Notes under the pieces: generated by a model
What the model was told of the DNA's origin: nothing
The model's database searches: none
What the model saw: only the letters and a program-made list of their open reading frames with translations
Part shown: positions 4,559 through 27,096 of the stretch, piece after piece
How the letters are laid out: each line of letters begins with the position of its first letter
Position numbering within the stretch: position 1 is the stretch's first letter
Virus record (IMG/VR): IMGVR_UViG_3300010883_000130
Location: 1 to 37,937 of that record
Reading direction: 5' to 3' (one strand)
DNA length: 37,937 bases
From: a virus
Program-made: the position numbers and the translations under genes

Positions 4559-4575
4559 ACTTAAGTATAGATAGT
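4559..4575 (-). promoter_or_regulatory. Promoter of the 4537-3809 operon
   Basis: On the minus strand: AACTATC, then TACTTAAGTAC, then the start codon at 4537 about 22 nt downstream. The core ACTTAAGT is palindromic. Confidence 0.7.
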
Positions 4576-4790
4576 TAAGTCTTAGGAGGATACCGTCTGT
4601 GTAGGCTTATGGTTTTACCCACCAAGCTTTTACTCGGGTATTCCTCGAAACTAGTCTGTCCTCCGTTGAAGAGTTCTGATCAAGAACCGCCTTGTTAGAC
4701 ACTAGATTTATAGAGCTTTGATTTTATAGAGTCTTCTAGATTGAATGTTGTGTACCAACAATTCTAAGCTCTACTGACATACTAGACTCG
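4575..4790 (-). ncRNA. Candidate structured RNA of about 215 nt
   Basis: There is no reading frame here, and the G+C content is visibly higher than around it. The promoter at 4813-4829 (minus) predicts a 5' end near 4790. A first domain is closed by GAGTCT/AGACTC (4784-4789 with 4729-4734) and contains a hairpin TGTTG/CAACA (4746-4750 with 4756-4760). Next comes a hairpin GTTCT-gatca-AGAAC (4673-4687). A last domain is closed by GGAGGA/TCCTCC (4585-4590 with 4659-4664). A CTCTATAAA(A)TC direct repeat lies between. No tRNA or known RNA family recognised. The 3' end abuts the promoter of the next gene without a clear T-tract. Confidence 0.55.
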
Positions 4791-4812
4791 CAATTACCTT
4801 ACGTCATACTAG

Positions 4813-4829
4813 TACTTAAGCATTGATAG
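4813..4829 (-). promoter_or_regulatory. Promoter facing the 4575-4790 RNA
   Basis: On the minus strand: CTATCAATGCTTAAGTACTAG, nearly identical to the promoter at 4559 and to that at 3731. The first downstream reading frame is more than 250 nt away. Confidence 0.65.
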
Positions 4830-4834
4830 TAAGT

Positions 4835-15025: not shown

Positions 15026-15044
15026 ATATTGATATAATCAGTAT

Positions 15045-15064
15045 CTTATTTAAAACTTACTAGT
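15045..15064 (-). promoter_or_regulatory. Promoter of the MCM-RadA operon
   Basis: On the minus strand AACTAGTAAG, then TATA box TTTTAAATAAG (15045-15055), then the ATG at 15025 about 20 nt on. Confidence 0.7.
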
Positions 15065-15170
15065 TAAGTTGATCAAGTATTAGCTAACATGTGTTGTTCT
15101 TGTAAAAATAAGTTAGTTAAGTTATTAACTAAGTCATTATTGGTAACTTAGTTATTAGGTTAGTTAAGTT
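15061..15170. repeat. TAGTTAAGTT repeats upstream of the MCM promoter
   Basis: Three exact copies of TAGTTAAGTT (15061-15070, 15114-15123, 15161-15170). An inverted relative sits between the last two (ACTTAGTTA at 15147-15155), as does TTAACTAAGT (15125-15134). The whole stretch is AT-rich. The first copy overlaps the promoter element of the MCM operon. This could be an operator array or replication-origin iterons. Confidence 0.45.
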
Positions 15171-15191
15171 TTAAATGTTTACAACAAAGGA

Positions 15192-15230
15192 AAAATAATA
15201 GGTGATAGCGTATCTACACTTTTTCACCTA
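15192..15230 (-). terminator. Hairpin plus T-tract terminator
   Basis: Stem TAGGTGA/TCACCTA with an 18-nt loop, then TTATTTTT on the minus strand; a bacterial-looking terminator in an archaeal-type genome. Confidence 0.5.
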
Positions 15231-15307
15231 CCCTTTGTATTGGTTTTTGTCCGCTGGGCATGCATAACACAGCACGATGTTATCCCCTCGGCTCTTCTGT
15301 TCGTGCT
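15192..15307 (-). ncRNA. Candidate pseudoknot small RNA with own promoter and terminator
   Basis: The promoter at 15327-15345 (minus) predicts a 5' end at about 15305-15308. The RNA then starts with AGCACGA (15307-15301), a 17-nt loop, ATAACA (15283-15278), TCGTGCT (15277-15271), one base, and TGTTAT (15269-15264). The first and third segments pair (7 bp) and the second and fourth pair (6 bp) in an interleaved order, which is a compact H-type pseudoknot. The 3' end is a 7-bp hairpin TAGGTGA/TCACCTA (15224-15230 with 15199-15205) followed by TTATTTTT. G+C is higher than around it and no reading frame is present. Function unknown. Confidence 0.65.
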
Positions 15308-15326
15308 ATATTCTTTACATATACAT

Positions 15327-15345
15327 AATATATAAGGTTTACTAG
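15327..15345 (-). promoter_or_regulatory. Promoter facing the pseudoknot RNA
   Basis: Minus strand CTAGTAAACCTTATATATTAT. The TAG stop of the upstream gene is part of it. It is the same type as the promoters at 17868 and 27076. Confidence 0.65.
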
Positions 15346-15509
15346 TTATTGATTAGTAAAATATCATTTGTTACATCATCAGGCATTACTAATGATGGTA
15401 TAACATCTCTTTCAACGAAAGAGTTAATGAAACCTTGAACTTTACTTGACTCTATATATGATTTAAGAACATCACCTTTCTTGTTTTTCCATGAAATTTC
15501 AATGAACAT
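15342..15509 (-). CDS. 55-residue hypothetical protein
   Basis: From ATG 15509 to TAG 15342. It begins MFIEISWKNKKGDVLKSYIE and ends PSLVMPDDVTNDILLINN, alpha/beta in character. The promoter at 15530-15550 puts the transcript start at the ATG, and its stop codon lies in the promoter of the following RNA. Both facts support translation. No family recognised. Confidence 0.6.
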   Translation of the reverse strand: MFIEISWKNKKGDVLKSYIESSKVQGFINSFVERDVIPSLVMPDDVTNDILLINN

Positions 15510-22871: not shown

Positions 22872-24254
22872 TCAACCAAATAACGATTCTCTTAATGCTT
22901 TACCAACATCAAGCACATACCAGTTGTTACCAGCAGTTAATGCCCTACATGCCAACACTAAACTGTCTGGATAATCATCATGTTCGTCTGATTTAACCTT
23001 CATTTGACCGTTTTCTGTATAAGCTCTTTTTAAATAAGACAACTGATATATCATTTTATCAACGTTTTTAAGTGTTATTTTATGATTTTCAAACAATAAT
23101 CTTAGATTTTTATACATAGAACCCTTCTCTTGTAATGAAAATACCACCCCTCTAGCTGGTATATCTTGCTCTCTAGCTAAGTCTATAAGACCTCCACCAA
23201 GACCAGTCTCATCTATGAACACAGTTTCCAATCTATAATCTCTCACCATATCACCAATTCTACCACATACCTGAACCACATTTGATTGTGTTTCTGAAAA
23301 TACTTCTTCAACAAACACAGCATCATCCTCATCAACAGATACAACAGTAAATACTGTTTCATCTCTACCACTTCTTGCAACATCCACCCCCATATAATGC
23401 TTCAATCTACCTCTAGGTTGTTTATCATTCACAGCTTCCATTAATAATGAATAAGGAATTAATTGATCACCTATATCTAAGAACTCACCCTCTACCTCTT
23501 GAACATATTCTTCTTTGGTTAGTTTTTTCATTTCTTCTACAAACGTAGGGTCTTCTTGAATAAGTGGGTTGTCTGTTGATTTTACATGAAATTCAGTCCA
23601 TAATCCTTCTGGATTTCTTGGTTTAGAATTCATACTGGCTTCATAGAAATAACCTGATTTGGAAAAAGGTGTTGATGTTAGCCACACCCTAGCATGAGTA
23701 GCCATACCAGACGGAAGGAATGCTCTAAGAATATCTGTCTTAATAAAACTGCATTCGTCTGCAATAATACAGTGAGGTGAATAACCTCTGAGTCCTGTAC
23801 CTTTTTCACCAGTAGCCCTTGTTACAATTTTTGAAACACCTGTGTTATCTAAGAATGCAACAGTCATTTCTGTCTGTGTGTTTCTCACCACATAATTTTT
23901 AAGAAAATCATTACCCATTATTAAACTTCTGATCCTGTCAAACATAATACCAGACTGGTTTTGTGTAGGTGCGGCAATAACTATTGTACATTCTTTGTTA
24001 ATTGTTTTTAACATTAGGGGTGCAAAAAACGCAAAATGTATAGCTTTAACTGCTGTACTCATAGTCTTTCCTACCTGACGACCTGATCTATATACTATGA
24101 ATCTATCTTGACAGTCTACATATTTAACATTATAATCAAATAATTTATGACCTAAAAAAATTTCACTGAATTTACTAGGACTGTCTGCACACTCTGCAAT
24201 CACTTGCATGAAGTCCTGTCTTTCTGACAATTCCTCAGTTGTAGGTCTACCCAT
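22872..24254 (-). CDS. terL: Terminase large subunit
   Basis: 460 residues. ATPase: Walker A RSGRQVGKT (56-64) with the Arg-rich form typical of terminases, Walker B CIIADE (162-167), coupling motif STP (194-196). RNase H-like nuclease: D291 (GVDVARSGRDET), D348 (FIDETGLGGG) and an acidic pair in DDYPDSL (427-430). All motor and nuclease residues are visible, so it should package DNA into preformed heads. The start overlaps the small-subunit candidate by 8 nt. This gene identifies the element as a tailed virus. Confidence 0.93.
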   Translation of the reverse strand: MGRPTTEELSERQDFMQVIAECADSPSKFSEIFLGHKLFDYNVKYVDCQDRFIVYRSGRQVGKTMSTAVKAIHFAFFAPLMLKTINKECTIVIAAPTQNQSGIMFDRIRSLIMGNDFLKNYVVRNTQTEMTVAFLDNTGVSKIVTRATGEKGTGLRGYSPHCIIADECSFIKTDILRAFLPSGMATHARVWLTSTPFSKSGYFYEASMNSKPRNPEGLWTEFHVKSTDNPLIQEDPTFVEEMKKLTKEEYVQEVEGEFLDIGDQLIPYSLLMEAVNDKQPRGRLKHYMGVDVARSGRDETVFTVVSVDEDDAVFVEEVFSETQSNVVQVCGRIGDMVRDYRLETVFIDETGLGGGLIDLAREQDIPARGVVFSLQEKGSMYKNLRLLFENHKITLKNVDKMIYQLSYLKRAYTENGQMKVKSDEHDDYPDSLVLACRALTAGNNWYVLDVGKALRESLFG

Positions 24255-24762
24255 TATTTTTTTGAGCCTTTATTTGTTTAAATATAGAAGTTATATCTCC
24301 AGTTTTATCATCTATTGCTGTGGTCTGTGTAACCATAATTTTTGTTGATAAATCTGTTAATGTTTTTACTATGTTAAGAAATGTGTTTATTTCAGATTTA
24401 GTATTTCTATCAGGTATATTACCATCCATTTTAGCCTGTGTCAATGCCATTAAAACATTCTCGAATGATAGTTTGGCTATCATATCCACCATGGCTTTAA
24501 CATCCTCTGGTTTTCTAGTATCTATCTGATTAATTACTTTAATAAAATCTTCTCTGACACTACATACAGCATCTTTTTCATATTTAGGACATCTACCATT
24601 ACCACCTGAATCAATACTTCTATACATGCACTGATTACAGTATGCTGGAATGTTTGCATCCTTAAAATGTTTGGCACTATTAAAAGGTGATACAGTCTTC
24701 CTTTTATCCTCAACTACTATGTTTTTACCATCTATAGGCTTAATTTTAAATAAATCTCCCAA
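24247..24762 (-). CDS. Probable terminase small subunit with zinc site
   Basis: 171 residues (TTG start at 24762). N-terminal zinc site CNQC...RCPKYEKDAVC (about 42-67), then helices (KPEDVKAMVDMIAKLSFENV, INTFLNIVKTLTDLSTKIM) suited to oligomerisation. Position directly before terL with an 8-nt overlap is the main reason for the call; terminase small subunits are poorly conserved. A DNA-recognition role at the packaging site would follow. Confidence 0.5.
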   Translation of the reverse strand: MGDLFKIKPIDGKNIVVEDKRKTVSPFNSAKHFKDANIPAYCNQCMYRSIDSGGNGRCPKYEKDAVCSVREDFIKVINQIDTRKPEDVKAMVDMIAKLSFENVLMALTQAKMDGNIPDRNTKSEINTFLNIVKTLTDLSTKIMVTQTTAIDDKTGDITSIFKQIKAQKNNG

Positions 24763-26089: not shown

Positions 26090-26298
26090 AATCTTGAGAA
26101 ATAACACTCCTTTTTACCTCTACTTCTGTTATTTGTTCTCACTTTTCCATTACAACAAGGACATCTATATTTTTTAATTATCTTAAGTTCATACCCTTTA
26201 TTACAATTTTTACAGTAACAATACAAACCTTCGTTATAATTAATACGTTTATAATGAATTTTTGGAAATAATGAACAATTACCTTTACAAGACATCAT
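26086..26298 (-). CDS. Zinc-binding protein, paralogue of the gene at 10356
   Basis: 70 residues: C-x3-CSLF, YCYCKNCNKGY, RCPCCNGKVRTNNRSRGKK. Cys order, the CCNG-x-VR motif and the basic tail match the protein at 10356-10556. It is coupled by 4 nt to the Cas4-like nuclease gene upstream, so it may help that nuclease bind DNA (inference). Confidence 0.65.
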   Translation of the reverse strand: MMSCKGNCSLFPKIHYKRINYNEGLYCYCKNCNKGYELKIIKKYRCPCCNGKVRTNNRSRGKKECYFSRL

Positions 26299-27056
26299 GC
26301 ATATTGTTTCCTTTCATCACCAAAACACATTGATGCATAGGGACACATACCATCACAAAGAAAACATTTTGTTCTCTCTGGTAATGTTTTTTCTAATAAA
26401 GATGATTTTATTACTCTTGATTTTTCTATCATATCAATCAAAGTGGTTTCCATATCTTGTAATTTGAAAGAAATTGTAATAGGTTTATCCCTTTTGTCTT
26501 TTTCTATTCTATTAGAAATGTATATTATACATCCAAATGTTGCATCTATATCATAGCATTTTTTTAATAATACTCTATACCTGTTTATTTGATCTTTATG
26601 AGATTCACTTGCTTTACTTGTTGCCTTAGAAAAATAATCTATTGAACCAGTAGTTTTTTTATCACAAATGACCCATTTATCACCCACTTTTATCAAGTCA
26701 TCTATACTACCATAAATTATATCTAGATGTTTTGGGTCGTCATCTGGTATTTTCTTTGCTTCTTCATATGTTAAAGGAACATCTCTAACATAGTCATATG
26801 CCAAAAACATTTCGTGATGTTCTGGTTCTGCTACCATTGAATTATTATGAACACACTGACCGAAATAAAGAGACTTCATGTCTTCTGTACTCATGCCTTG
26901 GTCTTTACCTATTTTTTTGTATATTACATTACGCATACATGGTTTAATAATATCTGATACATGTATAGTACCAAGTCTTTCTGTATTCATAGCTTCGATT
27001 TGGGATTTTCTAAACTTAAAGTATATGTCTTGATTTATATCATCTAGTTTTATCAT
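26295..27056 (-). CDS. Cas4/RecB-like PD-(D/E)XK nuclease with Fe-S cysteines
   Basis: 253 residues. Nuclease motifs: GQCVH (H70), GSIDD (D119), CDKKTT (D132, K134) and HKDQINRYR (Q156...Y160), in the order typical of RecB-family/Cas4. C40 together with C231, C234, C238 and C244 near the end match the four-Cys iron-sulphur site of Cas4 (one N-terminal Cys, three C-terminal), with one extra. No CRISPR array or other cas genes are present. In viruses such enzymes are thought to process DNA ends for recombination, in line with RadA here. Promoter at 27076-27096. Confidence 0.75.
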   Translation of the reverse strand: MIKLDDINQDIYFKFRKSQIEAMNTERLGTIHVSDIIKPCMRNVIYKKIGKDQGMSTEDMKSLYFGQCVHNNSMVAEPEHHEMFLAYDYVRDVPLTYEEAKKIPDDDPKHLDIIYGSIDDLIKVGDKWVICDKKTTGSIDYFSKATSKASESHKDQINRYRVLLKKCYDIDATFGCIIYISNRIEKDKRDKPITISFKLQDMETTLIDMIEKSRVIKSSLLEKTLPERTKCFLCDGMCPYASMCFGDERKQYA

Positions 27057-27075
27057 ACATAAATATATAATGTAT

Positions 27076-27096
27076 GATATATAAGGCTTACTAGTA
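27076..27096 (-). promoter_or_regulatory. Promoter of the Cas4-like operon
   Basis: Minus strand TTACTAGTAAGCCTTATATAT. The TAG inside is the stop codon of the 41-residue gene upstream. Start at 27056. Confidence 0.65.

Follow-up and report, generated by a model that had tools for sequence, protein, structure and literature searches.

Comparison with related viral records identifies an independently promoted, non-coding RNA gene, RNA1, on the minus strand (15307-15191) of the marine archaeal virus record IMGVR_UViG_3300010883_000130, the whole of which (37,937 nt) was analysed here and is referred to below as the window; transcription itself and the ends of the RNA are inferred, and no transcript has been shown. 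By the same comparative evidence, the predicted 5' end of RNA1 forms an H-type pseudoknot in which helix P1 is crossed by helix PK1, its 3' hairpin, H1, is an RNA motif that recurs among marine tailed viruses, probably of thaumarchaeal hosts, and H1 and a second domain, P0, make up a modular viral RNA set that is either fused in one putative transcript or split into two RNAs. These predictions from sequence point to RNA1 and its H1/P0 relatives as a viral RNA family that is undescribed and whose function is unknown. Whether thaumarchaeal tailed viruses share an undescribed two-part RNA machine (P0 and H1, fused or split) with an important trans-acting job, either by docking to a ribonucleoprotein of the host or by assisting the packaging motor, and with RNA1 as its H1 half in the window clade, is in our judgement an evenly balanced question.

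Background

The original prediction read positions 15192-15345 of the window as a stand-alone pseudoknotted small RNA with its own promoter and hairpin terminator beside the MCM operon, and remarked that archaeal tailed viruses have scarcely any described small RNAs. Our literature search for structured non-coding RNAs of archaeal tailed viruses agrees with that remark, having found none. The observation itself is confirmed as real, so far as sequence comparison can confirm it, and the reading is supported with the amendments given below. The analysis yields a defined RNA with a covariation-backed structure and two motifs that are searchable in any metagenome or metatranscriptome. Ammonia-oxidising archaea hold a key place in oceanic nitrogen cycling; should the partner of these RNAs be a host factor, they would give a view on the viral takeover of such archaea, and should they be packaging RNAs, they would constitute a rare counterpart of the phi29 pRNA from a different domain of life.

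Results and Discussion

Promoter, ends and composition of RNA1

Coordinates of the predicted features are collected in Table 1. A virus-type promoter with its TATA box at 15327-15336 (minus strand) and no reading frame after it had been proposed for this locus, and both points hold: the promoter sequence ACTAGTAAACCTTATATA, starting at 15346 (minus), matches perfectly the motif preceding the leaderless genes at 27095, 16629 and 15549, and no open reading frame was found in the RNA1 region. The start codons of these leaderless genes lie 21-22 nt past the TATA box, and from this spacing the 5' end of RNA1 was placed at 15307, the first base of helix P1; as read from the alignment, the distance from TATA box to predicted 5' end is exactly 21 nt in five of five close relatives. 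A reading frame is further excluded because the homologues differ by indels of 2-4 nt. A short peptide from GGAGG...GTG was also considered and rejected, its frame being broken in L005. For the transcript of about 115 nt that had been proposed, promoter, fold and U-rich end were all recovered, and the predicted length becomes about 117 nt.

The RNA1 stretch is the most G+C-rich intergenic piece in the window, a G+C island of 55% over 60 nt against a mean of 31%, which places it above 99.8% of the window. Taken as a single sequence it offers only weak evidence for a fold, since the z-score of its nested minimum free energy is only -1.9 and the same crossing topology can be formed, on sequence alone, at 0.5% of window positions; it is covariation that makes the fold real. 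Covariance model R1, in whose training the window took part, scores RNA1 at 127.5 bits.

Table 1. Predicted RNA features of the window and the basis of each
Feature	Position	Strand	Basis
RNA2, second structured non-coding RNA, 3' end approximate	4570..4791	-	72-77% conserved in three relatives
Diverged P0 domain of RNA2 (GAGGAATACC ... GGTATCCTC, enlarged loop)	4586..4646	-	aligned to P0 of L107/L108
RNA2 promoter	4813..4830	-	virus promoter motif; no start codon at leaderless distance
RNA1, predicted non-coding transcript of about 117 nt	15191..15307	-	locus kept in 7 distinct sequences including window; no ORF
U-rich 3' end of RNA1, probable termination site	15190..15198	-	TTATTTTTC (TTATTTTT at 15198-15191); U tract kept in most homologues
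H1 hairpin, conserved 3' motif (covarying stem, AAARNNYGUAGANACRYYAU core)	15199..15230	-	model R3, 42.3 bits
P2 3' strand CCC (tentative)	15256..15258	-	sequence reading
PK1 3' strand TGTTAT	15264..15269	-	same covariation test as PK1 5' strand
P1 3' strand GTGCT	15271..15275	-	partner of AGCAC; same covariation test
PK1 5' strand ATAACA (crossing helix)	15278..15283	-	5/6 pairs changed both sides
P2 5' strand GGG, extension of pseudoknot helix (tentative)	15284..15286	-	sequence reading
P1 5' strand AGCAC	15303..15307	-	4/5 pairs changed both sides between relatives
Promoter of RNA1 (ACTAGTAANNCTTATATA type)	15326..15346	-	perfect copy of the virus's leaderless-gene promoter; kept in 7/7 homologues

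Homologues and covariation of the 5' pseudoknot

A search for homologues via relatives of the MCM protein gave 73 loci. Besides the window, seven records (L002-L005, L006, L007 and L008) carry RNA1 at the same place, between the gene for a 55-aa protein and a repeat array; L006 and L007 are identical, so that seven distinct RNA1 sequences including that of the window were available. The MCM proteins of L002-L005 are 89-94% identical to that of the window, and those of L006/L007 and L008 81-82%.

Two interleaved helices, AGCACGA/TCGTGCT and ATAACA/TGTTAT, had been read from the window alone, with the proviso that a lack of compensatory changes in homologues would refute them. That outcome did not arise: in a test on five distinct rows in two clades, with the segments aligned by hand and the variable L1 omitted, compensatory changes were found in both helices, with 9 of the 11 pairs of P1 and PK1 changed on both sides (11 of 23 pairs, in conserved columns, for the whole structure). 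The covariation score of the whole structure was 0.617, compared with 0.274 +/- 0.042 in shuffles and at most 0.12 with slid partners. The crossing pair stands, but not the length of P1, of which 5 bp are conserved in all homologues and the 7-bp extension occurs in the window virus only. Between relatives P1 is rewritten from AGCAC/GUGCU to UAACC/GGUUA, while PK1, 5-6 bp long, takes the forms AUAACA/UGUUAU, GUAACA/UGUUAC, GUAUCA/UGAUAC, (A)AUCCA/UGGAU(A) and (G)AUGGA/UCCAU(A), one of its positions passing through all four Watson-Crick types (A-U, U-A, G-C and C-G). Loops L2 (UC) and L3 (G) are identical in seven of seven sequences.

The third helix, P2 (GGG/CCC, 15286-15284 / 15258-15256), is short and probably lengthens the knot. 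It would continue PK1 across a 5-nt bulge and appears in different homologues as GGG/CCC, GGAG/CUCC and GAGG/CCUC; fewer changes support it, and a local hairpin around CUGAGUAGG, a segment missing in the window virus and L004, is a competing fold. A hammerhead-like reading of CUGAGUA/CGAAA was discarded, its topology being incompatible with the covarying helices.

The MCM locus

The location beside the MCM operon, part of the original prediction, holds within the window clade but not as a general feature. In 17 more distant relatives that have the 55-aa gene, the repeats, a 110-aa gene and MCM in the same order, the RNA is absent from this locus, and the gap between the 55-aa and 110-aa genes measures 79-177 nt without a G+C island, as against 301-424 nt where the RNA is present. 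Adjacency to MCM is thus not general, and the replication locus can do without the RNA. With many records being fragmentary, a feature's absence from one of them is weak evidence.

Positions 15026-15190 of the window hold a dense array of TTAACTAA / TTAGTTAA inverted repeats, upstream of the 110-aa ribbon-helix-helix-like gene and MCM. This array is a candidate operator or replication origin, and the repeats are present also in relatives without the RNA. A candidate origin suggested by GC skew was rejected, the skew merely tracking the coding strand.

The H1 hairpin in other viruses

The predicted H1 hairpin of the window consists of 7 bp, an internal loop, 5 bp and an AGAU loop, followed by the U-rich stretch at 15198-15191. 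It had been taken for a terminator; hairpin and U tract are both present, but the hairpin is a conserved motif of dozens of viruses and not merely a terminator. Its consensus is stem-AAARNNYGUAGANACRYYAU-stem, with a nearly invariant core that hardly differs between the two RNA1 clades, whereas P1 and PK1 are rewritten.

The form of the core seen in other viruses, AAAGAAYGTAGATACRTCAT, was matched by 39 viral contig stretches in a scan for which, by our own estimate, fewer than one match is expected by chance. The four inner pairs flanking the core form in 18 of 21 distinct contexts, compared with 2.1 in shuffles (maximum 10 in 2000), and all pair types are represented among the contexts. Model R3 finds the window hairpin at 15229-15200 (42.3 bits, E 2e-7 over the whole window), the hairpin being among its eight training sequences. 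Model R1, trained on the window clade only, ranks the H1 RNAs of L127, L223, L123, L125, L200 and L139 among its best matches (E 0.003-0.07, 142 kb), and a simple sequence profile made only from the strict-core hairpins places 15218-15209 at the top in the window, weakly (E 0.53). RNA1 accordingly meets the definition of the H1 family, a family defined in this analysis. H1 matches in L192, L212 and L220, with no related genes and incomplete stems, are probably due to chance and were set aside.

One H1 RNA, in L206/L089 (the 56-kb record IMGVR_UViG_3300027839_000010), has a 5' part with UGAUGA...CUGA, resembling C and D boxes.

The P0 domain, fused with H1 or split from it

In L007 and L008 the RNA begins about 40 nt earlier, with a P0 domain of the form GUC-AGGG-AUUACC...GGUAGCCCU-CUUAA. 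A scan for P0 gave 31 stretches of viral contigs; across 21 distinct sequences the inner part is nearly invariant and the outer stem covaries at six of six pairs. In whole-record searches with model R2, 36 records were positive, each with exactly one copy. P0 is likely the 5' end of a transcript, given that a TATA box stands at a near-fixed distance, 35-38 nt before its CAGGG, in most contexts that meet a simple TATA pattern.

A single short RNA unites P0 and H1 in L007, L008, L123, L125, L126, L127, L134, L136 and others. The two domains are separate, on the same strand and 0.45-1.1 kb apart, in L191, L194, L198, L210, L215 and L222, several such pairs having small reading frames in between; in L223 they are separate and close together. 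P0 was not detected by R2 in the window, where RNA1 lacks the domain, whereas the L006-L008 version has it; nor was it detected in the Nitrososphaera provirus Pro-Nvie1, in GenBank phages or in plasmids. The proposal of a stand-alone small RNA needs qualifying: RNA1 is predicted to be a non-coding gene with conserved promoter and spacing, but it is not isolated, belonging to a larger family with a second domain.

Two further modules accompany P0. A conserved stem-UUGAGUUGUGGAUUCUAGAUACCUGAAAA-stem module lies beside P0 or within its apical loop in L124, L131, L147, L049, L194, L198, L210 and L215, and a conserved two-hairpin module (UUCUACCAAGUCGGUAGUGAGUGAGUGCGUAAAU...) lies 3' of P0 in L067, L130, L144, L071, L049 and L066.

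RNA2 and a possible third non-coding RNA

The window encodes a second putative structured RNA, RNA2, orthologous to RNAs in records L002, L003 and L008. The versions in L002 and L003 have a canonical P0 (52.3 bits), while the P0 of the window's RNA2 is too diverged for model R2 to detect. With H1 in RNA1 and a diverged P0 in RNA2, the window virus has the split arrangement. RNA2 lies near CobS, one larger gene standing between them.

RNA2 lies in a G+C island, and its 5' helix carries a compensatory change, GAGUCU/AGACUC in the window and AAGUCU/AGACUU in L109. Elsewhere, a 353-nt gap at 2006-2358 has virus-type promoters on both strands, no ORF and a GATAACA/TGTTATC hairpin, matches the L002 record at 91% identity over about 240 nt, and may encode a third non-coding RNA.

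Hosts and gene neighbourhoods

Genes for RadA, MCM, a terminase and proteins resembling CobS and CobT are present in the window virus; radA, ATPases and CobS are listed as typical marthavirus genes (PMC7678222). Among 50,697 phage records, only the Nitrososphaera provirus Pro-Nvie1 matches the TerL of the largest P0/H1 lineage (32.5%, E 3e-59); in a different lineage, the portal finds its matches in tailed viruses of haloarchaea. From the gene set and these two matches we infer that the hosts of the P0/H1 viruses are most likely ammonia-oxidising archaea.

Linkage of P0/H1 RNAs to packaging genes is present in about four lineages and absent in at least three, including that of the window. The RNAs lie 0.1-1.5 kb upstream of TerS-TerL-portal in the first lineage, 0.1-1 kb upstream of TerS-TerL in the second, which has an unrelated TerL, and about 0.14-0.6 kb from the portal start in the third; in the fourth they lie downstream of the portal, within about 0.5-2 kb. 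The remaining lineages have them next to CobS/CobT-like genes, next to MCM (window) or at other places.

Comparison with known RNA families

None of the 4227 models of Rfam 15 reached its gathering threshold in the window, and at permissive thresholds RNA1, RNA2, three homologues and two P0 RNAs gave only chance matches, all sub-threshold (best E 0.27). ARAGORN found no tRNA or tmRNA in the window. Archaeal C/D and H/ACA guide RNAs are likewise small stable archaeal RNAs, but no C/D boxes or kink-turn were seen in RNA1. The P0/H1 family fits no known family, and the kind of job it does may yet prove to be a known one.

Several pattern matches were rejected. A scan of a genome collection gave a single match, a chance one inside an RNase E-like gene; the pattern ACGAAARR...CTGAGTAGG gave two extra matches, apparently coding and without a model match; and GTGTAGANNCRCTATYACY gave 11 extra matches in coding-looking sequence, none with a comparable model match.

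Possible functions

Our tentative preference, held at somewhat less than even confidence, is that the RNA acts in trans and that H1 and P0 dock on a conserved component of the archaeal host; partner and biological effect are speculative and the function is unproven. H1 and P0 would dock onto an RNA-binding protein or a ribonucleoprotein such as the ribosome, RNA polymerase or RNase P, the variable part (the pseudoknot in RNA1) would shield the 5' end or provide another contact, and the outcome would be a decoy or scaffold redirecting host gene expression in infection. We favour a host over a viral partner because the RNA loops are nearly invariant while the viral proteins have diverged or been replaced, the P0/H1 viruses having two TerL families and different portals. 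No transcript, binding partner or phenotype is known, however, and near-invariance could also reflect recent horizontal spread of the element. Mimicry of rRNA is unsupported: comparison with E. coli 16S, 23S and 5S rRNAs and tRNAs gave nothing convincing, the one antisense match having p 0.03 among about 48 tests.

The main rival, a packaging RNA that would form part of the DNA-packaging motor or recognise the portal and terminase, functionally like the phi29 pRNA, accounts better for the closeness of the RNAs to packaging genes in several lineages. We consider this unlikely and nevertheless keep it as a strong rival on account of that linkage, seen in about four lineages; the single P0 copy per record also agrees with it. 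Like the phi29 pRNA, RNA1 is a small structured tailed-virus RNA with its own promoter, and several of its relatives are encoded beside terminase or portal genes. RNA1 has, however, no Rfam match to the phage pRNA family and no sequence match to it, its pseudoknot and the H1/P0 domains are different, the RNAs are not fixed beside packaging genes, and TerL and portal vary by lineage where P0 and H1 barely do.

An antisense or decoy regulator, pairing with specific host or viral RNAs through invariant single-stranded segments, seems improbable to us. Such segments do exist in most homologues (CUGAGUAGG, CGAAA and the UAGAUA loop), but the first of them is lost in the window virus itself and in L004.

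Still more doubtful is an RNA that primes or regulates replication. RNA1 would be transcribed towards the TTAACTAA array, its end lying within tens of bases of these repeats, and the array precedes the 110-aa protein, ribbon-helix-helix-looking on sequence reading, then MCM, with RadA; the plasmid copy-control RNAs ColE1 RNAI and pMV158 RNAII come to mind, with a small RNA near a replication gene, a repeat array and a ribbon-helix-helix-like gene. Yet RNA1 is not antisense to its neighbour as far as can be seen, the 17 relatives of the same gene order have no RNA at this locus, and elsewhere the same modules lie far from MCM.

Least credible of all is a cis-acting leader or attenuator of the downstream operon, such as a riboswitch-like element: RNA1 does stand upstream of an operon, ends in a hairpin and U tract and shares with the preQ1, SAM-II and fluoride H-type pseudoknot riboswitches a compact two-helix knot with very short L2 and L3, but the next gene is preceded by the U tract, a repeat stretch of about 160 nt and a promoter of its own at 15064 (minus), which departs from the motif at two positions, leaving no gene in the transcript unless by read-through, which is not excluded. 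No Rfam riboswitch matches, the H1/P0 modules are unrelated, and in other viruses opposite-strand genes often follow the RNA directly, which argues that it is not a leader.

Other genes of the window virus

Two further genes on the minus strand deserve mention. The 171-aa gene at 24247-24762, which precedes TerL, matches, as do its homologues, the C-terminal part of a PHROG named queuine tRNA-ribosyltransferase, and is probably a small terminase subunit or a fused or mis-annotated domain. The gene at 26295-27056 encodes a 253-aa protein with weak similarity to Cas4 / PD-(D/E)XK nucleases.
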